From an uncultured Oscillospiraceae bacterium (GTDB lineage Bacteria; Bacillota; Clostridia; Oscillospirales; Oscillospiraceae): DNA of 43,317 nucleotides. A model generated the notes under the pieces. It was not told where the DNA came from and made no database searches. It saw nothing but the letters and a program-made list of their open reading frames with translations. The position numbers and the translations under genes are program-made. Shown here piece after piece: positions 6,371 through 32,263 of the stretch (position 1 is the first letter of the stretch; each line of letters opens with the position of its first letter). The stretch is from the NCBI GenBank assembly GCA_944385405.1, contig CALWXB010000014.1:1-43317 (forward strand), read 5' to 3'.

Positions 6371-6424
6371 ATCCTCGCCTCCCTTTCCGGCCTCCATCTC
6401 CCGTGGCCGTTTTAACTGTACTAA

Positions 6425-6438
6425 CTGTACTAGTACAG
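6425..6438. promoter_or_regulatory. Palindromic operator of the GntR regulator
   Basis: Perfect 14-bp palindrome CTGTACTAGTACAG, with a further direct copy of ACTGTACTA beside it (from about 6415). It sits at the start-site side of the -10 box, where a bound repressor would block transcription. It is the most likely binding site for the GntR protein encoded directly downstream. Confidence 0.75.
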
Positions 6439-6440
6439 AT

Positions 6441-6469
6441 AGCATAACACCCCCGCCCTCCCCTGTCAA
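6441..6469 (-). promoter_or_regulatory. Promoter of the GntR/ABC/amidase operon
   Basis: The minus strand has -35 TTGACA (6469-6464), a 17-bp spacer and -10 TATGCT (6446-6441), about 70 bp ahead of the regulator start. The adjoining palindrome at 6425-6438 implies repression. Confidence 0.85.
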
Positions 6470-6520
6470 GAGGTCCTTGGAAACTTTCCCCAAAGCGGCG
6501 AAAAAAGGCCATTTTTTCTC

Positions 6521-6549
6521 TTTACAACCGGAATCCCTTGTGATATAGT
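6521..6549 (+). promoter_or_regulatory. Promoter of rpsO
   Basis: -35 TTTACA (6521-6526), 17-bp spacer and -10 TATAGT (6544-6549). It predicts a leader of roughly 100 nt before rpsO. Confidence 0.8.
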
Positions 6550-6656
6550 CATTTGGCACGTATTCGTGCATTTGCCCCAGGGCCTCGTCTCACGGAGATG
6601 CACCGCTCCTGACGCGCAGTCCTGCGGGGACTATTTATGAAAGGTGGAACTTAACC

Positions 6657-6923
6657 ATGCTGCGCAAAGAACAGAAGACTGCCATCATCGACGCCAACCG
6701 CACTCACGAGACGGACACCGGCTCCCCCGAGGTCCAGATCGCCATTCTCACCGAGCGGATCAATCAGCTCACCGCTCACATGCAGGCCAACCCCCAGGAC
6801 AAGCACTCCAACCGGGGCCTTTTGAAGATGGTCGGCAAGCGCCGCAGCCTGCTGGATTACCTGCAGAAGAAGGACATCGAGCGCTATCGCGCCCTGATCG
6901 CCAAGCTGGGCATCCGGAAGTAA
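6657..6923 (+). CDS. rpsO: 30S ribosomal protein S15
   Basis: Full-length S15, 88 aa, which binds the central domain of 16S rRNA early in 30S assembly. The whole family signature is present, with [15 protein letters not shown] near the N-terminus, DKHSNRGLL, and RRSLLDYLQ leading to the basic C-terminus KLGIRK. The start ATG is at 6657 behind AAAGGTGG; an ATG at 6644 lies in another frame. pnp follows, as in many bacteria. A structured leader precedes the gene, which could allow S15 autoregulation, but that cannot be proved from sequence alone. Confidence 0.98.
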
Positions 6924-6933
6924 GCTGAAAACA

Positions 6934-6966
6934 GGGTGGTGTAGACTCTCTGCACCACCCTTCTTT
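6934..6966 (+). terminator. Stem-loop after rpsO
   Basis: GGGTGGTG and CACCACCC form an 8-bp GC-rich stem with a loop of about 14 nt, followed by TTCTTT. It is a modest terminator, possibly partial, because no clear separate promoter is visible before pnp. Confidence 0.65.
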
Positions 6967-6984
6967 CACATTTTTCCCTCCGCG

Positions 6985-7082
6985 CCCACGAGAGCCCGTT
7001 TCGCATTTAGCAGTTGAAAATGCGCCTGAACAGATGGGCTTCGGGTCTGTTTTCAAGTGCTAAATGGCCCGGCTCTTGTGGG
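6985..7082 (+). promoter_or_regulatory. Large RNA hairpin in the pnp leader (possible RNase processing site)
   Basis: CCCACGAGAGCC (6985-6996) pairs with GGCTCTTGTGGG (7071-7082) over 12 bp with one G-U. CATTTAGCA (7004-7012) then pairs with TGCTAAATG (7058-7066), and TTGAAAA (7014-7020) with TTTTCAA (7050-7056). This makes one long, mostly double-stranded rod ending 27 nt before the pnp start. In Escherichia coli a long pnp-leader hairpin is cut by RNase III and mediates PNPase autoregulation; the same role is proposed here by analogy. Confidence 0.75.
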
Positions 7083-7109
7083 GAATCTCAAAAGAAAAGG
7101 AGCAATCCC

Positions 7110-9260
7110 ATGTCAACCATCATCACCAAGAGACAGTTCCCCCACTACCACAAGTATGAGATGGATCTGGCCGGCCGCCCCCTGACCCTGGAGGTGGGCA
7201 AGCTGGCGGAGCTGGCCAACGCCGCCGTCATGGTGGGCTACGGCGACACCAGGGTCCTGGTGTGCGCCACCGCCGCCCCCCGTCCCCGGGACGGCATCGA
7301 CTTCTTCCCCCTGTCCGTGGATTTTGAGGAGAAGCTCTACTCCGTGGGCCGCATCCCCGGCTCCTTCAACCGCCGGGAGGGCCGTCCCGGCGAGAAAGGC
7401 ATCCTCACCAGCCGCGTCATCGACCGGCCCATCCGCCCCCTGTTCCCCTACGACTTCCGCAATGACGTGTCCATCATGGCCACCGTCATGAGCGTGGACC
7501 ACGACTGCTCTCCCGAGATCGCCGCCCTCATCGGCACCTCTGCCGCCCTGGCCATCTCCGACATCCCCTGGAACGGCCCTGTGGGCGCCCTGAAGGTGGG
7601 CCTGGTGAACGGTGAGCTGGTGCTCAACCCCAACAGCGAGCAGCGCAAGGTCTCCGATCTGGACGTCACCGTGGTCTCCACCGGCGAGAAGGTGGTCATG
7701 ATCGAGGCCGGCGCCAACGAGGTGGACAACGACACCATGTTCCGCGCCATCCAGCTGGCCCATGAGGAAAACCAGAAGCAGATCGCCCTGATCCGCCAGA
7801 TGGTGGCCGAGGTGGGCAAGCCCAAGTTCGACTATCCCCACGCCGACTTCAACCAGGAGCTCTTCGACGACATCGTGGCCAACTTCATGGACGAGGCCAA
7901 GGCCGCCATGGACACCGACGACAAGAATGTCCGGGAGGCCCGCTGGAACGCCATGATCGAAAAGTGGCATGAGAAGTACCTGGAGCAGTACCCCGAGATG
8001 GACAAGTACCTCGAGGAGATCACCTACAAGTTCCAGAAGAAGATCGTCAAGGCCTGGCTGCTGGAGGGCCATCGCGTGGACGGCCGCGCCAAAAACGAGA
8101 TCCGTCCTCTGTCCGCCGAGGTGGGCCTGCTGCCCCGCGCCCACGGCTCCGGCCTCTTCACCCGCGGCCAGACCCAGGTGCTGTCTGTGGCCACCCTGGA
8201 CACCCTTTCCGCCAACCAGAAGCTGGATACCATCTGGGAGGAGACGGAGAAGCGGTATATGCACCACTACAACTTCCCCGGCTATTCCGTGGGCGAGGCC
8301 AAGCCCGCCCGCTCCCCCGGCCGGCGTGAGATCGGCCACGGCGCGCTGGCCGAGCGTGCCCTGCTGCCTGTGATCCCCTCTGTGGAGGAGTTCCCCTACG
8401 CCATCCGCGTGGTCAGCGAGGTGGTCTCCTCCAACGGCTCCACCTCCCAGGGCAGCGTCTGCGGCTCCACCCTGGCGCTGATGGACGCCGGCGTGCCCAT
8501 CAAGGCCCCTGTGGCCGGCATCTCCTGCGGCCTGATCCAGGACGACGACGGCTCCTTCACCACCTTCATCGACATCCAGGGCGTGGAGGACTTCCACGGC
8601 GAGATGGACTTCAAGGTGGCCGGCACCAAGAAGGGCATCACCGCCATCCAGATGGACCTGAAGAATGACGGCCTCACTATGGCCATCATCCGGGAGGCCC
8701 TGGACACCACCTACGACGCCCGCTGCCAGATCCTGGACCAGATCATGCTGCCTGTGATCTCTGAGCCCCGCAAGGAGGTCTCCAAGTACGCCCCCAAGAT
8801 GCTCACCATGCACATCGATCCCTCCAAGATCCGGGAGGTCATCGGCTCCGGCGGCAAGGTCATTCAGAAGATCGTGGCCGACACCGGCGCCAAGATCGAC
8901 ATCAACGACGACGGCTCCATCTTCATCGCCGGCGTGGACGCCGCCTCCTGCGACGCCGCCAAGAAGTGCATCGACGACATCGTGTTCGTTCCCGAGGTGG
9001 GTGCGCTGTACTACGGCCGCGTGGTGCGCCTGATGACCTTCGGCGCCTTCGTGGAGCTGGCTCCCGGCAAGGACGGCCTGGTGCACATCTCCAAGCTGGC
9101 CGACCACCGCATCGAGAAGGTGGAGGACGCCTGCAAGATCGGCGATATGATGTGGGTGAAGGTCACCGACATCGACGAAAAGGGCCGCGTGAACCTCTCT
9201 CACAAGGACGCCGTGAAGGAGATCAAGGCCAAGGAAGCCGCCGGCGAGCGGATCAAGTAA
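7110..9260 (+). CDS. pnp: Polyribonucleotide nucleotidyltransferase (PNPase)
   Basis: Phosphorolytic 3'-to-5' exoribonuclease, 716 aa, of RNA turnover. It shows two RNase PH-like domains (about 10-215 and 315-545), a linking helical domain, a KH domain (about 555-615, with [15 protein letters not shown]) and an S1 domain (about 625-700, with [21 protein letters not shown]). Catalytic-core landmarks such as [17 protein letters not shown] and [23 protein letters not shown] are intact. The frame runs upstream to 7014 through the leader hairpin, but the ATG at 7110 has AAAAGGAG upstream and gives the normal N-terminus. It follows rpsO and ends at a strong terminator. Confidence 0.98.
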
Positions 9261-9277
9261 ACTCCTCTGTAAATGAC

Positions 9278-9315
9278 AAGCAGGCCGGACGCCGCAGCGT
9301 CCGGCCTGCTTTTTT
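9278..9315 (+). terminator. Terminator after pnp
   Basis: A perfect 14-bp stem (AAGCAGGCCGGACG and its complement) with a six-base loop, CCGCAG, ending in a T-run. It lies between the convergent pnp and SLH genes and may act weakly in the other direction. Confidence 0.93.
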
Positions 9316-9327
9316 ACAGAAGAAGCA

Positions 9328-10326
9328 TTATGCAGGGGTCGTCTCCGCCTCACCGGCAGGAAGGTTCTCCACCCGGTAGAGGAAGGTGGCGATCTGCCCC
9401 CGGGTGCAGATGGTATCCGGGCTGAAGGTGGTATCGCTGGTGCCCAAAGTCACGCCGTTTTCCACAGCCCAGGCCACCGCCTGCGCATAGGCGGCATCCG
9501 CGGCCACATCCGTAAAGGAGACAGCCTCCTTTGCCTCCGGCGCACCCACCGCTTTCCAGAGATAGGTCACTGCGTCCGCCCGGGTGCAGCCGGCATGGAT
9601 ATCGTCCACCTGCAGCAGGTCCTCTCCGATGGCCCAGCGGGTGACGTTCATGGTCTCCTGGCCCGCCTCACCGGTTGCATCCGGCTTGCCTTCCGCCCGC
9701 CACAGGAACGTCAAAATGTGCAGGTGGGAGCAGGTAGCCGCAGGCCGGAAGGTGCCGTCCGTATAGCCCTGGGTGATGCCCTTCTCCACGGCCCACAAAA
9801 TGGCATCATAATAGGGAGAATCTTCCGCCACATCGGGGAAGGGATTTTCCGCGGCGGGGGCCGCCTCTTCCGGCTCTCCGGCAGGCAGCGCGTTGTAGAC
9901 GGCGCCCTCAGCCACTACGACAGCCTCCTCCGCATCGGCAGCCAGCTTGCCGGTCTTGCCCGCAGAGGAATCCACGATGGTCAGCGTATAACCCTCCTGG
10001 ACCTCAAAGACAGCACAGCCCGGCGCGCCGGTGAGGGTGTGGCCGTTGAGATCCACGGTGACGTTTTTCGCCGTGACGGTCATAGGCTCAGCAAACAGCC
10101 CGTCATAGTCACTGGTGCCGATGACCACGGCGGCAGTCAGCACCACGTCGGTGTCCAGCCGGGCGGTGACACTGTCCGCCTCCGTCTCAGACAGGATAGC
10201 GCCCAGCAGCGCCTCGTAGGTCTGCCCGTTCACCGTGATCTGCTGTTCCCCGGCGGCGGAGGCAGGCAGCGCCAGTCCCAGGCACAGGACCAGCGCCAGC
10301 AGCGTGGATACGAACCGTCTTTTCAT
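9328..10326 (-). CDS. S-layer homology (SLH) domain surface protein, 332 aa
   Basis: Secreted protein with a signal peptide (MKRRFVSTLLALVLCLGLALPASAA, cleavage near residue 25), a region of about 120 residues rich in beta-type sequence (VDLNGHTLTG, YTLTIVDSSAG, resembling right-handed beta-helix surface proteins), an Ala/Glu/Pro linker, and three SLH repeats from about residue 150. Each repeat shows the pattern of aromatic pair, W-A-V-E-x-G-I/V and TDGTF-type turn. SLH domains typically hold proteins to pyruvylated wall polymers. The start is the ATG at 10326 behind AAAGGAG. The gene diverges from the GNAT gene and has its own promoter. Its specific role is unknown. Confidence 0.87.
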   Translation of the reverse strand: MKRRFVSTLLALVLCLGLALPASAAGEQQITVNGQTYEALLGAILSETEADSVTARLDTDVVLTAAVVIGTSDYDGLFAEPMTVTAKNVTVDLNGHTLTGAPGCAVFEVQEGYTLTIVDSSAGKTGKLAADAEEAVVVAEGAVYNALPAGEPEEAAPAAENPFPDVAEDSPYYDAILWAVEKGITQGYTDGTFRPAATCSHLHILTFLWRAEGKPDATGEAGQETMNVTRWAIGEDLLQVDDIHAGCTRADAVTYLWKAVGAPEAKEAVSFTDVAADAAYAQAVAWAVENGVTLGTSDTTFSPDTICTRGQIATFLYRVENLPAGEAETTPA

Positions 10327-29733: not shown

Positions 29734-29769
29734 AAAGCGGAGATGTTTCACGTGAAACATCTCCGCTTT
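29734..29769. terminator. 36-bp perfect palindrome: terminator with embedded parS
   Basis: A perfect inverted repeat whose outer arms (AAAGCGGAGA and complement) lead into a T-run on the plus strand, as in an intrinsic terminator. Its inner 16 bp are exactly a parS site. It lies 4 bp after the GH13 stop codon. Confidence 0.85.
29744..29759. promoter_or_regulatory. parS: parS centromere site 1
   Basis: TGTTTCACGTGAAACA, a perfect match to the bacterial parS consensus where ParB loads and spreads. It lies about 0.24 kb upstream of parA, and the ParB protein is encoded at 30771-31661. Confidence 0.97.
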
Positions 29770-29821: not shown

Positions 29822-29828
29822 AGTGTGC

Positions 29829-29986
29829 GTTGGATGTTTGTCTGCTGCGCCTTTTGCACGGACAAGCCCTTCCCCGCCGCGTCAGGCGGGCCCTGTGCCC
29901 TGAATGCCCCGGCCTTCAGGGCTTTGGACCTTCTCCGGCACGGATGCGGCCACCTGACTCCGCGTAAAAAGAAAGTAGGTGCCTTT
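29829..29986 (+). promoter_or_regulatory. Structured leader of parA
   Basis: The stretch between the promoter and the GTG start holds two GC-rich hairpins: CCCGCC/GGCGGG near 29875-29891, and an 8-bp perfect stem GCCCTGAA/TTCAGGGC near 29897-29922. The parA frame is open through it, but no good start lies there. The function of the leader is unknown. Confidence 0.45.
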
Positions 29987-30745
29987 GTGGCAAAGACCAT
30001 TGCAATCGTGAATCAAAAGGGCGGTGTAGGCAAAACCACCACCTGTGTGAATCTGGCTGCCGCCTTGACCGAGGCCGGCCGCCGGGTACTGCTGTGCGAC
30101 TTTGATCCCCAGGCCAACTCCACTTCGGGTATGGGGGTGGACAAGACCGTCTCCAAGGGGATCTATCAGGTGCTCATCGGAGAGGCTTCCGCCCAGGACG
30201 CCATGGTACACACCCGCTTCGGCGACGTTCTGCCTTCCAACAAGGCCCTGGCCGGGGCGGGCATCGAGCTGATCTCCATGGAGAACCGGGAATTCCTCCT
30301 GCGGGACGCGCTGGCTCAGGTCGCGGATCAATATGATTTTATTTTTATTGACTGTCCTCCCTCCCTGGAGCTGCTGACGCTCAATGCGCTGTGCGCTGCC
30401 CAAGCGATTTTGGTGCCAGTGCAGGGGGAATACTTTGCATTGGAAGGTCTCAGTGATCTGATGAACACCGTGCGCATCGTGCGCCGGTCCCTGAACCCGG
30501 GCCTGGAGCTGGAGGGCGTACTGCTGACCATGTTCGACGGCCGCACCAATCTGGCCCTCCAGGTGGCAGAGGAGGTCAAGCACTACTTCCCCGGCAAGGT
30601 ATACGCCACGGTGATCCCCCGGAACGTGCGCCTCAGCGAGGCCCCCAGTCATGGGAAACCTATCACTGCCTACGACCGCTCTTCCCGGGGCGCGGAGGCC
30701 TATACCGCTCTGGCTGCGGAATTTTTGAACAAACAGAGCGCGTGA
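29987..30745 (+). CDS. parA: Chromosome-partitioning ATPase ParA (Soj)
   Basis: Walker-type ATPase of 252 aa that moves ParB-parS complexes over the nucleoid. The deviant Walker A KGGVGKTTT is at the N-terminus (IAIVNQKGGVGKTT), followed by LLCDFDPQANSTSG, Walker B-type FIFIDCPPSLELLT and the C-terminal VIPRNVRLSEAPSHGKPI. The frame extends upstream to 29825, but the GTG at 29987 gives the conserved start and has AGTAGGTG ahead. parB follows 25 bp later and parS lies upstream, so the full parABS system is present. Confidence 0.96.
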   Translation: MAKTIAIVNQKGGVGKTTTCVNLAAALTEAGRRVLLCDFDPQANSTSGMGVDKTVSKGIYQVLIGEASAQDAMVHTRFGDVLPSNKALAGAGIELISMENREFLLRDALAQVADQYDFIFIDCPPSLELLTLNALCAAQAILVPVQGEYFALEGLSDLMNTVRIVRRSLNPGLELEGVLLTMFDGRTNLALQVAEEVKHYFPGKVYATVIPRNVRLSEAPSHGKPITAYDRSSRGAEAYTALAAEFLNKQSA

Positions 30746-30770: not shown

Positions 30771-31661
30771 ATGGCATCCAAAAAGCCCTCCGGACTCGGC
30801 CGGGGCCTCGGCGCCCTGCTGGGCGACGACGTGCTCTCCACCGAGCGCAGCGGAACCTTTACCTTGCCCATCTCCCAGGTGGAAAGCTGCTCCTCGCAGC
30901 CCCGAAAGTCTTTTGACGAAGCCTCGCTGGCGGAGCTGGCGGACTCCATCCGCCGCCACGGCATTATTCAGCCTCTCACGGTGCGGAAGCTGGCCTCCGG
31001 CTACTATCAGATTATCGCGGGAGAGCGCCGCTGGCGGGCCGCGCGGCTGGCAGGGCTTTCCGAGGTTCCGGTGGTGGTCATTGAGGCAGATGACCGCAAG
31101 GCCGCCGAGCTGGCCATGATCGAGAACCTCCAGCGGGAGGACCTGAATCCTATGGAGGAAGCCATGGGATTCCACACCCTCATTGAGACGTACCACATGA
31201 CCCAGGAAGAAGCCGCCCAAAGTGTGGGGAAATCCCGCAGCGCCGTGGCCAACGCCCTGCGGCTGCTGGGTCTCACCCCTGCCGTCAAAGCTATGGTGGA
31301 ACGGGGCGATCTCTCCGCCGGCCACGCCCGGGCGCTGCTGCCACTCTCCCCTGCCCTGCAGGAAACCGCCGCCAACGCAGTATGCTCCGGAGGGCTGTCC
31401 GTACGGCAGACTGAGGCACTGGCCAAACGTCTGGCAGCAGAAAAAAAGGAACCTGCCCCCAAAGCGTCATCCGGCCCGGATTATGCGGCTGAGGCCCAGC
31501 GGGATCTGTCTTCCCGGCTGGGACGCGGCGTGCGGATTGTCACCGGTCGGAAAAAAGGCCGGGTGGAATTGGAATACTACGGAATCGATGACTTGAACGA
31601 CCTTCTGGAGGCCCTGGCTCTGATCCGGGTGCGGAAAGAAGAGAAAGGACCCACGGTATGA
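30771..31661 (+). CDS. parB: Chromosome-partitioning protein ParB (Spo0J)
   Basis: CTP-dependent DNA clamp of 296 aa that loads at parS. The N-terminal ParA-stimulating peptide (SKKPSGLGRGLGALLG) is present. The CTPase domain follows with GERRWRA (residues 84-90) and ENLQREDLNPMEEA, then the helix-turn-helix region (MTQEEAAQSVGKSRSAVANALRLL, AGHARALL) and the C-terminal dimerisation domain (about 240-290). AAAGGAG precedes the ATG. Two perfect parS sites flank the parA-parB region. Confidence 0.97.
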   Translation: MASKKPSGLGRGLGALLGDDVLSTERSGTFTLPISQVESCSSQPRKSFDEASLAELADSIRRHGIIQPLTVRKLASGYYQIIAGERRWRAARLAGLSEVPVVVIEADDRKAAELAMIENLQREDLNPMEEAMGFHTLIETYHMTQEEAAQSVGKSRSAVANALRLLGLTPAVKAMVERGDLSAGHARALLPLSPALQETAANAVCSGGLSVRQTEALAKRLAAEKKEPAPKASSGPDYAAEAQRDLSSRLGRGVRIVTGRKKGRVELEYYGIDDLNDLLEALALIRVRKEEKGPTV

Positions 31662-32247: not shown

Positions 32248-32263
32248 TGTTTCACGTGAAACA
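32248..32263. promoter_or_regulatory. parS: parS centromere site 2
   Basis: A second perfect TGTTTCACGTGAAACA, 2504 bp from the first. It lies in the 57-bp gap between the unknown coiled-coil gene and serS, and unlike site 1 has no terminator arms around it. Confidence 0.97.

Follow-up and report, generated by a model that had tools for sequence, protein, structure and literature searches.

What does a long, near-perfect hairpin do between the genes for ribosomal protein S15 (rpsO) and polynucleotide phosphorylase (pnp)? In E. coli, once RNase III has cut the pnp leader, PNPase degrades the duplex stub that is left. A hairpin in the same position is found in the DNA analysed here, a stretch of 43,317 nt from an uncultured Oscillospiraceae bacterium (GCA_944385405.1, contig CALWXB010000014.1, positions 1-43,317, forward strand), which we call the window. 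We ask whether this hairpin, the rod, is a functional RNA, how far it is shared and what it may do for pnp.

Results and Discussion

Layout of the locus

All parts of the locus lie on the plus strand in the order rpsO, terminator-like hairpin, rod, Shine-Dalgarno sequence and pnp. The open reading frame of rpsO occupies 6657-6923, and its translation served to locate the rpsO adjoining pnp in relatives. A first hairpin at 6934-6960 (GGGUGGUG...CACCACCC), followed by the broken U-run UUCUUUCACAUUUUU, folds as a terminator-like and perhaps leaky end of rpsO; it escaped a simple terminator scan, and GC-rich hairpins 3' of rpsO occur in many relatives among the gap folds listed. The rod (6985-7082) comes next, and beyond it lies the Shine-Dalgarno sequence of pnp (AAAAGGAG, 7095-7102). 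The pnp gene itself (7110-9260, 716 codons plus stop) matches NCBIfam TIGR03591 with 913 bits, above the cut-off, and near relatives use the same start codon, the ATG at 7110. A simple sigma-70 scan, which can overlook genuine promoters, called none in the rpsO-pnp gap. The window's own genome encodes RNase III.

Elsewhere in the window, a T-box leader on the minus strand (1893-2143) scores above the Rfam gathering score. Around the end of pnp lies a strong hairpin (9215-9330, z -6.7 on the minus strand), probably a terminator and perhaps shared with a convergent gene. Two perfect sites (29744-29759 and 32248-32263), which by their consensus we take to be parS-like, flank open reading frames at 29825-30745 and 30771-31661 that by eye are parA/soj-like and parB/spo0J-like.

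The rod and its stability

A sequence-only reading of this DNA had described a near-perfect hairpin spanning exactly 6985-7082 and ending 27 nt ahead of the pnp start codon, and both statements hold: the minimum free energy fold has just these limits, with 40 pairs and -52.5 kcal/mol. The same reading had counted three paired blocks of 12, 9 and 7 bp. Blocks of these lengths are indeed there, and the fold shows four main ones, of 12 bp (6985-6996/7071-7082), 9 bp (7004-7012/7058-7066), 9 bp (7014-7022/7048-7056) and 7 bp (7024-7030/7040-7046), besides three single pairs. None of 200 dinucleotide shuffles was as stable as the rod (mean -28.5 kcal/mol, sd 3.5; z -6.9), and the 186-nt gap, which had been proposed for folding, reached a z of -7.4 against shuffles. 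By raw stability, the frame nearest to the rod ranks 681st of 8644 (100-nt frames in 10-nt steps on both strands; this coarse frame omits two closing pairs of the rod). Raw stability alone is thus not exceptional for so GC-rich a window, and the case for the rod therefore rests on comparison. What distinguishes it is its place, its conservation and its covariation.

Two core types in the genus, family and order

A pnp match was obtained in all 149 genomes searched in the order-level comparison, the window's own included. We took 90 loci in which the DNA ahead of pnp was available (30 from this search and 60 from further ones), and 86 gave a usable start; L071, L072, L078 and L086 were left out because the 80-residue PNPase query missed the start, and the contig of L067 carries no rpsO. 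A strict pattern found one of two cores ahead of pnp in 82 of the 86 gaps, the window counted. Type A, with UUAGCAGUUGAA in the 5' arm (7007-7018 in the window) pairing with UUCAAGUGCUAA in the 3' arm (7052-7063), accounts for 43 gaps, and type B (UUUGUGUUUGAAA/UUUCAAAUACGAAA) for the other 39. As for the four misses, L064 and L066 are type B-like by eye, the gap of L081 is only 41 nt long, and L074 is without a core.

Of the 82 gaps with a core, 78 have a 3' arm that ends 36-53 nt ahead of the aligned start of pnp (30, 33, 64 and 215 nt in the others). The loop between the arms, in contrast, ranges from 21 to 287 nt, a pattern that suits an RNA stem more than paired DNA half-sites. Enlarged loop ends of 95-287 nt with an intact core stem are seen in L025, L026, L041, L042, L055, L058 and L094. 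In L021, whose gap measures 553 nt, two extra partial type B 5' arms with a longer insert lie upstream of an intact rod. Strong folding is general in this set, which spans the genus, family and order of the window: of 85 leaders scored (86 loci offered), 74 have z <= -3, computed on up to 140 nt before the start without the first 45 nt after rpsO, with 40 shuffles each.

Strict type B was not found outside the window's genus in the genomes searched. A covariance model of type B matched 23 of 245 genomes of the order, three of which gave no locus. Of the 20 loci obtained, 19 (including that of the window) adjoin rpsO and pnp, and the 18 of these whose sequence was read have type A-like or intermediate cores. 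Within the genus the same model matched 51 of 86 genomes, and matches with E <= 1e-4 fall at one place per genome except in G050, where a second copy adjoins the first; weaker matches lie elsewhere in G075 (5.6e-4), G002 (0.0054) and G003 (0.0070). The rod is single-copy in its own genome, and no viral contig matched either of two exact patterns. We also considered a repeat or mobile palindrome and rejected it on these copy numbers and on the empty search of viral contigs.

Compensatory changes

The sequence-only reading had named compensatory base changes among relatives as a check on the rod. Such changes were found, beyond both shuffled and slid controls. RNAalifold reports changes on both sides in 9 of 17 pairs for type A and 9 of 24 for type B, and for each type the counts on the named structures were higher than in any of 500 shuffles by each of five measures, in alignments (A1 and A2) that omit members with loops above 60 nt (6 of 43 and 3 of 39, respectively). 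Among 46 distant members from many families (alignment A4, drawn from a hand-made list of 48 by leaving out L278 and L037, whose coordinates were wrong), 16 of 19 pairs changed on both sides, with 145 both-sided cells, where shuffles averaged 52.5 (sd 8.7) and sliding the partner gave no more than 55. Types A and B alone (A5, 41 rows) gave 15 of 19 pairs and 136 cells, against 44.7 shuffled and at most 45 slid. The first selection (A3, 40 rows), from which L046, L059, L069, L274, L276 and L331 were also omitted by our own choice, gave 16 of 19 pairs and 150 cells against 53.5 shuffled. In A3, 28 of 500 shuffles reached the number of further pair types and 2 of 500 the number of pairs with both sides changed; each of these measures was reached by 2 shuffles in A5 and by none in A4.

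The core letters are similar across many families, and much of the helix turns over. Part of the core's constancy is built in, as the core finder accepted only sense folds in which four letters of the core are paired, a rule that fixes identity and pairing of columns 8-11 (type A) and 7-10 (type B). The finder made one wrong call (L273), and its loose type B rule took five gaps outside the genus set that are not strict type B (L278, L310, L339, L357 and L361). One column pair, G7013 opposite G7057 in the window, is non-standard in 28 of the 41 rows of A5. A third core type, C, of about GUAGAAGGUAGAUU/AAUCUACAUCCUAC, was seen in other families of the class (L326, L331, L336, L340 and L343); four of these five rows are displaced by seven columns in A4, and the register of type C relative to A and B depends on the alignment and is not a finding. 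By its compensatory changes, the rod is a structured RNA kept by selection.

The working strand

Two kinds of evidence bear on the molecule in which the rod works. Paired cells in two alignments contain 165 G-U and 23 A-C combinations, and the pnp-sense strand is the more stable in 91 of 110 hairpins (one tie; 110 of 112 cores compared), a count slightly favoured by the core finder's demand for a sense fold and whose significance is overstated, since the sequences are related and were selected on that fold. In the class sample the sense strand is preferred in 28 of 32. A type A model (R1) scores 75.4 bits on the sense strand of the window and 40.7 on the opposite one. Because the sense fold is preferred and G-U far exceeds A-C, the rod is assigned to the pnp mRNA, and most likely it acts within this transcript rather than as antisense RNA or as DNA.

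An antisense RNA or a DNA-level palindrome, after the manner of Listeria rliD (RF01494), is accordingly very unlikely. Listeria rliD, an antisense RNA by its Rfam type label, is antisense to pnpA, and so shares the gene neighbourhood of the rod and differs from it in strand. The name appears in a review (PMC8079631). It is true that both strands of the rod fold, and weak RF01494 matches occur in 22 of 147 class genomes, as they do in the B. subtilis and L. lactis control genomes, above the cut-off in one of the two. Nevertheless, the model has no match in the window's own genome and none above the gathering score in the 147; by coordinates, 18 of the 22 weak matches lie antisense over the pnp start and 4 elsewhere, and the one alignment inspected runs largely over the pnp start. 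Together with the strand preferences, the loops of 21 to 287 nt speak against a palindrome read in DNA.

Exchange of types within the genus

When 30 pnp genes of the genus are placed on a tree, the core switches between types A and B six times, and at least five of these switches are forced by well-supported branches. The clearest case is the pair L024 (type B) and L025 (type A): their rpsO genes are identical over 267 nt and their pnp starts are 98.7% identical over 150 nt, whereas the gaps diverge from their very first base. L020 resembles its type A relative L018 in the terminator, yet has a type B rod (alignment by eye). The leader is thus exchanged as a unit, and rod types A and B have been swapped between close relatives with rpsO and pnp in place. 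Errors in draft genomes could account for single swaps, hardly for all. Speculatively, the long palindrome may itself invite recombination. Co-variation of a partner site inside PNPase was considered and rejected: no residue separates the two types, the best one sorting 23 of 30.

Spread beyond the order

With one genome taken per species, the exact type A pattern occurs in at least 118 stretches, of which 80 were examined. Upstream of pnp lie 75 of these, 71 at 23-55 nt and four at 116-183 nt from the aligned start; two more (L136 and L167) adjoin rpsO and failed the pnp test, and the remaining three are gammaproteobacterial with no pnp nearby. By record title, Oscillibacter, Flavonifractor, Pseudoflavonifractor, Intestinimonas, Agathobaculum and Butyricicoccus are among the type A matches listed. 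Three members of the genus share the last 100 nt of the gap identically with records titled Oscillibacter sp. CAG:155, uncultured Oscillibacter and uncultured Dysosmobacter. In the NCBI taxonomy Oscillibacter belongs to the class Clostridia.

Model R1 matches only 26 of 293 class genomes (E <= 0.01), so the type A core is a minority in the class; all 21 matches with E <= 1.3e-4 lie between rpsO and pnp, and the other five do not. Over the phylum it matches 10 of 299 genomes, four of them before pnp (in the window's own genome and in three others from its order) and six not near pnp. In the class sample, a non-random set of 69 loci from 147 genomes (29 best PNPase matches and 40 hand-picked), 48 of the 66 leaders scored have z <= -3, against 1 of 21 in other classes of the phylum (28 loci offered). 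The 18 class gaps with z above -3 include a few, such as L285 and L287, with the core farther upstream; in others no long rod is seen. In the Clostridia L333, L344, L349 and L351 a long rod is kept with quite different sequence. Strong pnp-leader folding is thus common in the Clostridia sample and rare in the sampled other classes of the phylum.

Known pnp leaders and the place of the rod among them

The nearest functional parallel is the pnp leader of E. coli, which has the same arrangement of rpsO, terminator, long stem and pnp (PMC5872136); folded here as a control, its gap formed a terminator hairpin followed by a long imperfect stem ahead of pnp, with z -6.4. RNase III processes this second stem, and the site matters for pnp expression (PMC5872136); E. 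coli pnp is under feedback regulation through its own decay (PMC3997798). There are differences as well. By eye the E. coli sequence is unlike the Clostridia rod; its gap has a pnp promoter, whereas the simple scan, which may overlook promoters, called none in the gap studied here; and RNase III cleavage and feedback are established for E. coli, whereas the rod is known from sequence and folds. Given the lack of likeness by eye and the single other-class gap of 21 with z <= -3, we lean tentatively towards a separate origin of the rod rather than conservation from a common leader.

Another phylum provides the Actino-pnp RNA motif (RF01688; PMC2864571) and a Streptomyces rpsO-pnp intergenic hairpin that is cut by RNase III (PMC5872136). 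Both are RNAs ahead of pnp; we infer that they are the same element, and Actino-pnp is the closest described kind. RF01688 had no match at E <= 5 in 6400-7300 of the window, nor at E <= 0.5 in 18 loci of relatives. The mRNA targets of B. subtilis RNase III resemble the rod in being long intramolecular duplexes, of 10-36 bp and cut with a two-base stagger (PMC11780869), and differ in that the description given there includes no shared core of the rod's kind.

Rfam gave nothing at gathering score over the rod and nothing meaningful at E <= 5, and the 18 loci of relatives gave sub-threshold matches only. Further sub-threshold matches (miRNA families, sraA, MicX and MAT2A) were considered and taken as chance. 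Titles and abstract openings in the literature, searched with incomplete coverage, yielded no Clostridia pnp-leader element. A large set of human-microbiome RNA candidates, mostly unnamed (PMC8040213), could contain the hairpin.

A putative entry site for RNase III

We hold with moderate confidence, and by analogy, that the rod probably acts in cis on the pnp mRNA and offers RNase III an entry site that serves feedback by PNPase, following the E. coli logic with a different sequence. The sequence-only reading had suggested this logic too, and our analysis bears it out in part. This reading is based on the layout of the E. coli control, the Streptomyces hairpin that is cut, the duplex range of B. 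subtilis targets and the RNase III gene of the window's own genome. Transcripts would continue past the weak terminator of rpsO, and their pnp leader would form a rod of about 36-40 bp close ahead of the ribosome-binding site. RNase III would recognise and cut the rod, leaving a processed 5' end on the pnp message; PNPase would then act on the leftover duplex stub, so that more PNPase would mean less pnp mRNA. Counting against the RNase III reading, a mismatch that recurs at one place seems more than a generic duplex needs. The class gaps with z above -3, the small share of class genomes with a type A match and the absence of a promoter call also weigh on that side.

It is the recurrent mismatch that lends some weight to sequence-specific docking, in which PNPase or another RNA-binding factor, and not RNase III, would read the core beside it. 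The similar core letters in many families and the fixed place of the mismatch agree with docking. We still think it unlikely: pairs 8/81 and 10/79 do not vary in A5 partly because the core finder asked for their letters, much of the helix turns over, the four Clostridia rods named above have quite different sequences, and no PNPase residue tracks the core type.

The same core and mismatch seem to exceed what a passive 5' stabiliser or insulator would need, and for such a role a shorter stem should do. A stable rod near the ribosome-binding site could in principle block 5'-to-3' decay by RNase J, which is known in B. subtilis (PMC3997798), or decay from the rpsO side, with no regulated cut; we regard this as quite improbable.

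Hardly credible, finally, is a role in termination or attenuation, or as a switch masking the ribosome-binding site. The leader does hold a stable hairpin, and in 15 of 72 leaders the Shine-Dalgarno sequence pairs mainly upstream of the rod. No U-run follows the rod, however (the bases after 7082, read as RNA, are GAAUCUCAAAAG), the scan calls no terminator there, and pairing of the Shine-Dalgarno sequence with the upstream side averages 0.25, which is not general. Folds leave this site unpaired at a mean of 0.25 in the intact leader and 0.12 in a simulated cut form. Masking of the Shine-Dalgarno sequence was rejected as not general, the site being mostly paired with or without the rod.

Conclusions

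Our analysis provides a compact pnp-leader element that is defined by covariation and is directly testable as a putative RNase III entry site. A bolder proposal combines its parts: an undescribed, Clostridia-wide pnp-leader RNA family that would be read sequence-specifically beside its fixed mismatch and would move between related species as a two-allele cassette, with rpsO and pnp left in place. As a whole we consider this doubtful. The two leader types exchanged within one genus are natural variants for probing the role of the rod sequence. PNPase feedback via a leader cut by RNase III is already known from E. coli, and a cut leader hairpin from Streptomyces. If the rod is their counterpart in the Clostridia, a double-stranded RNA gate on pnp would be a recurrent solution.
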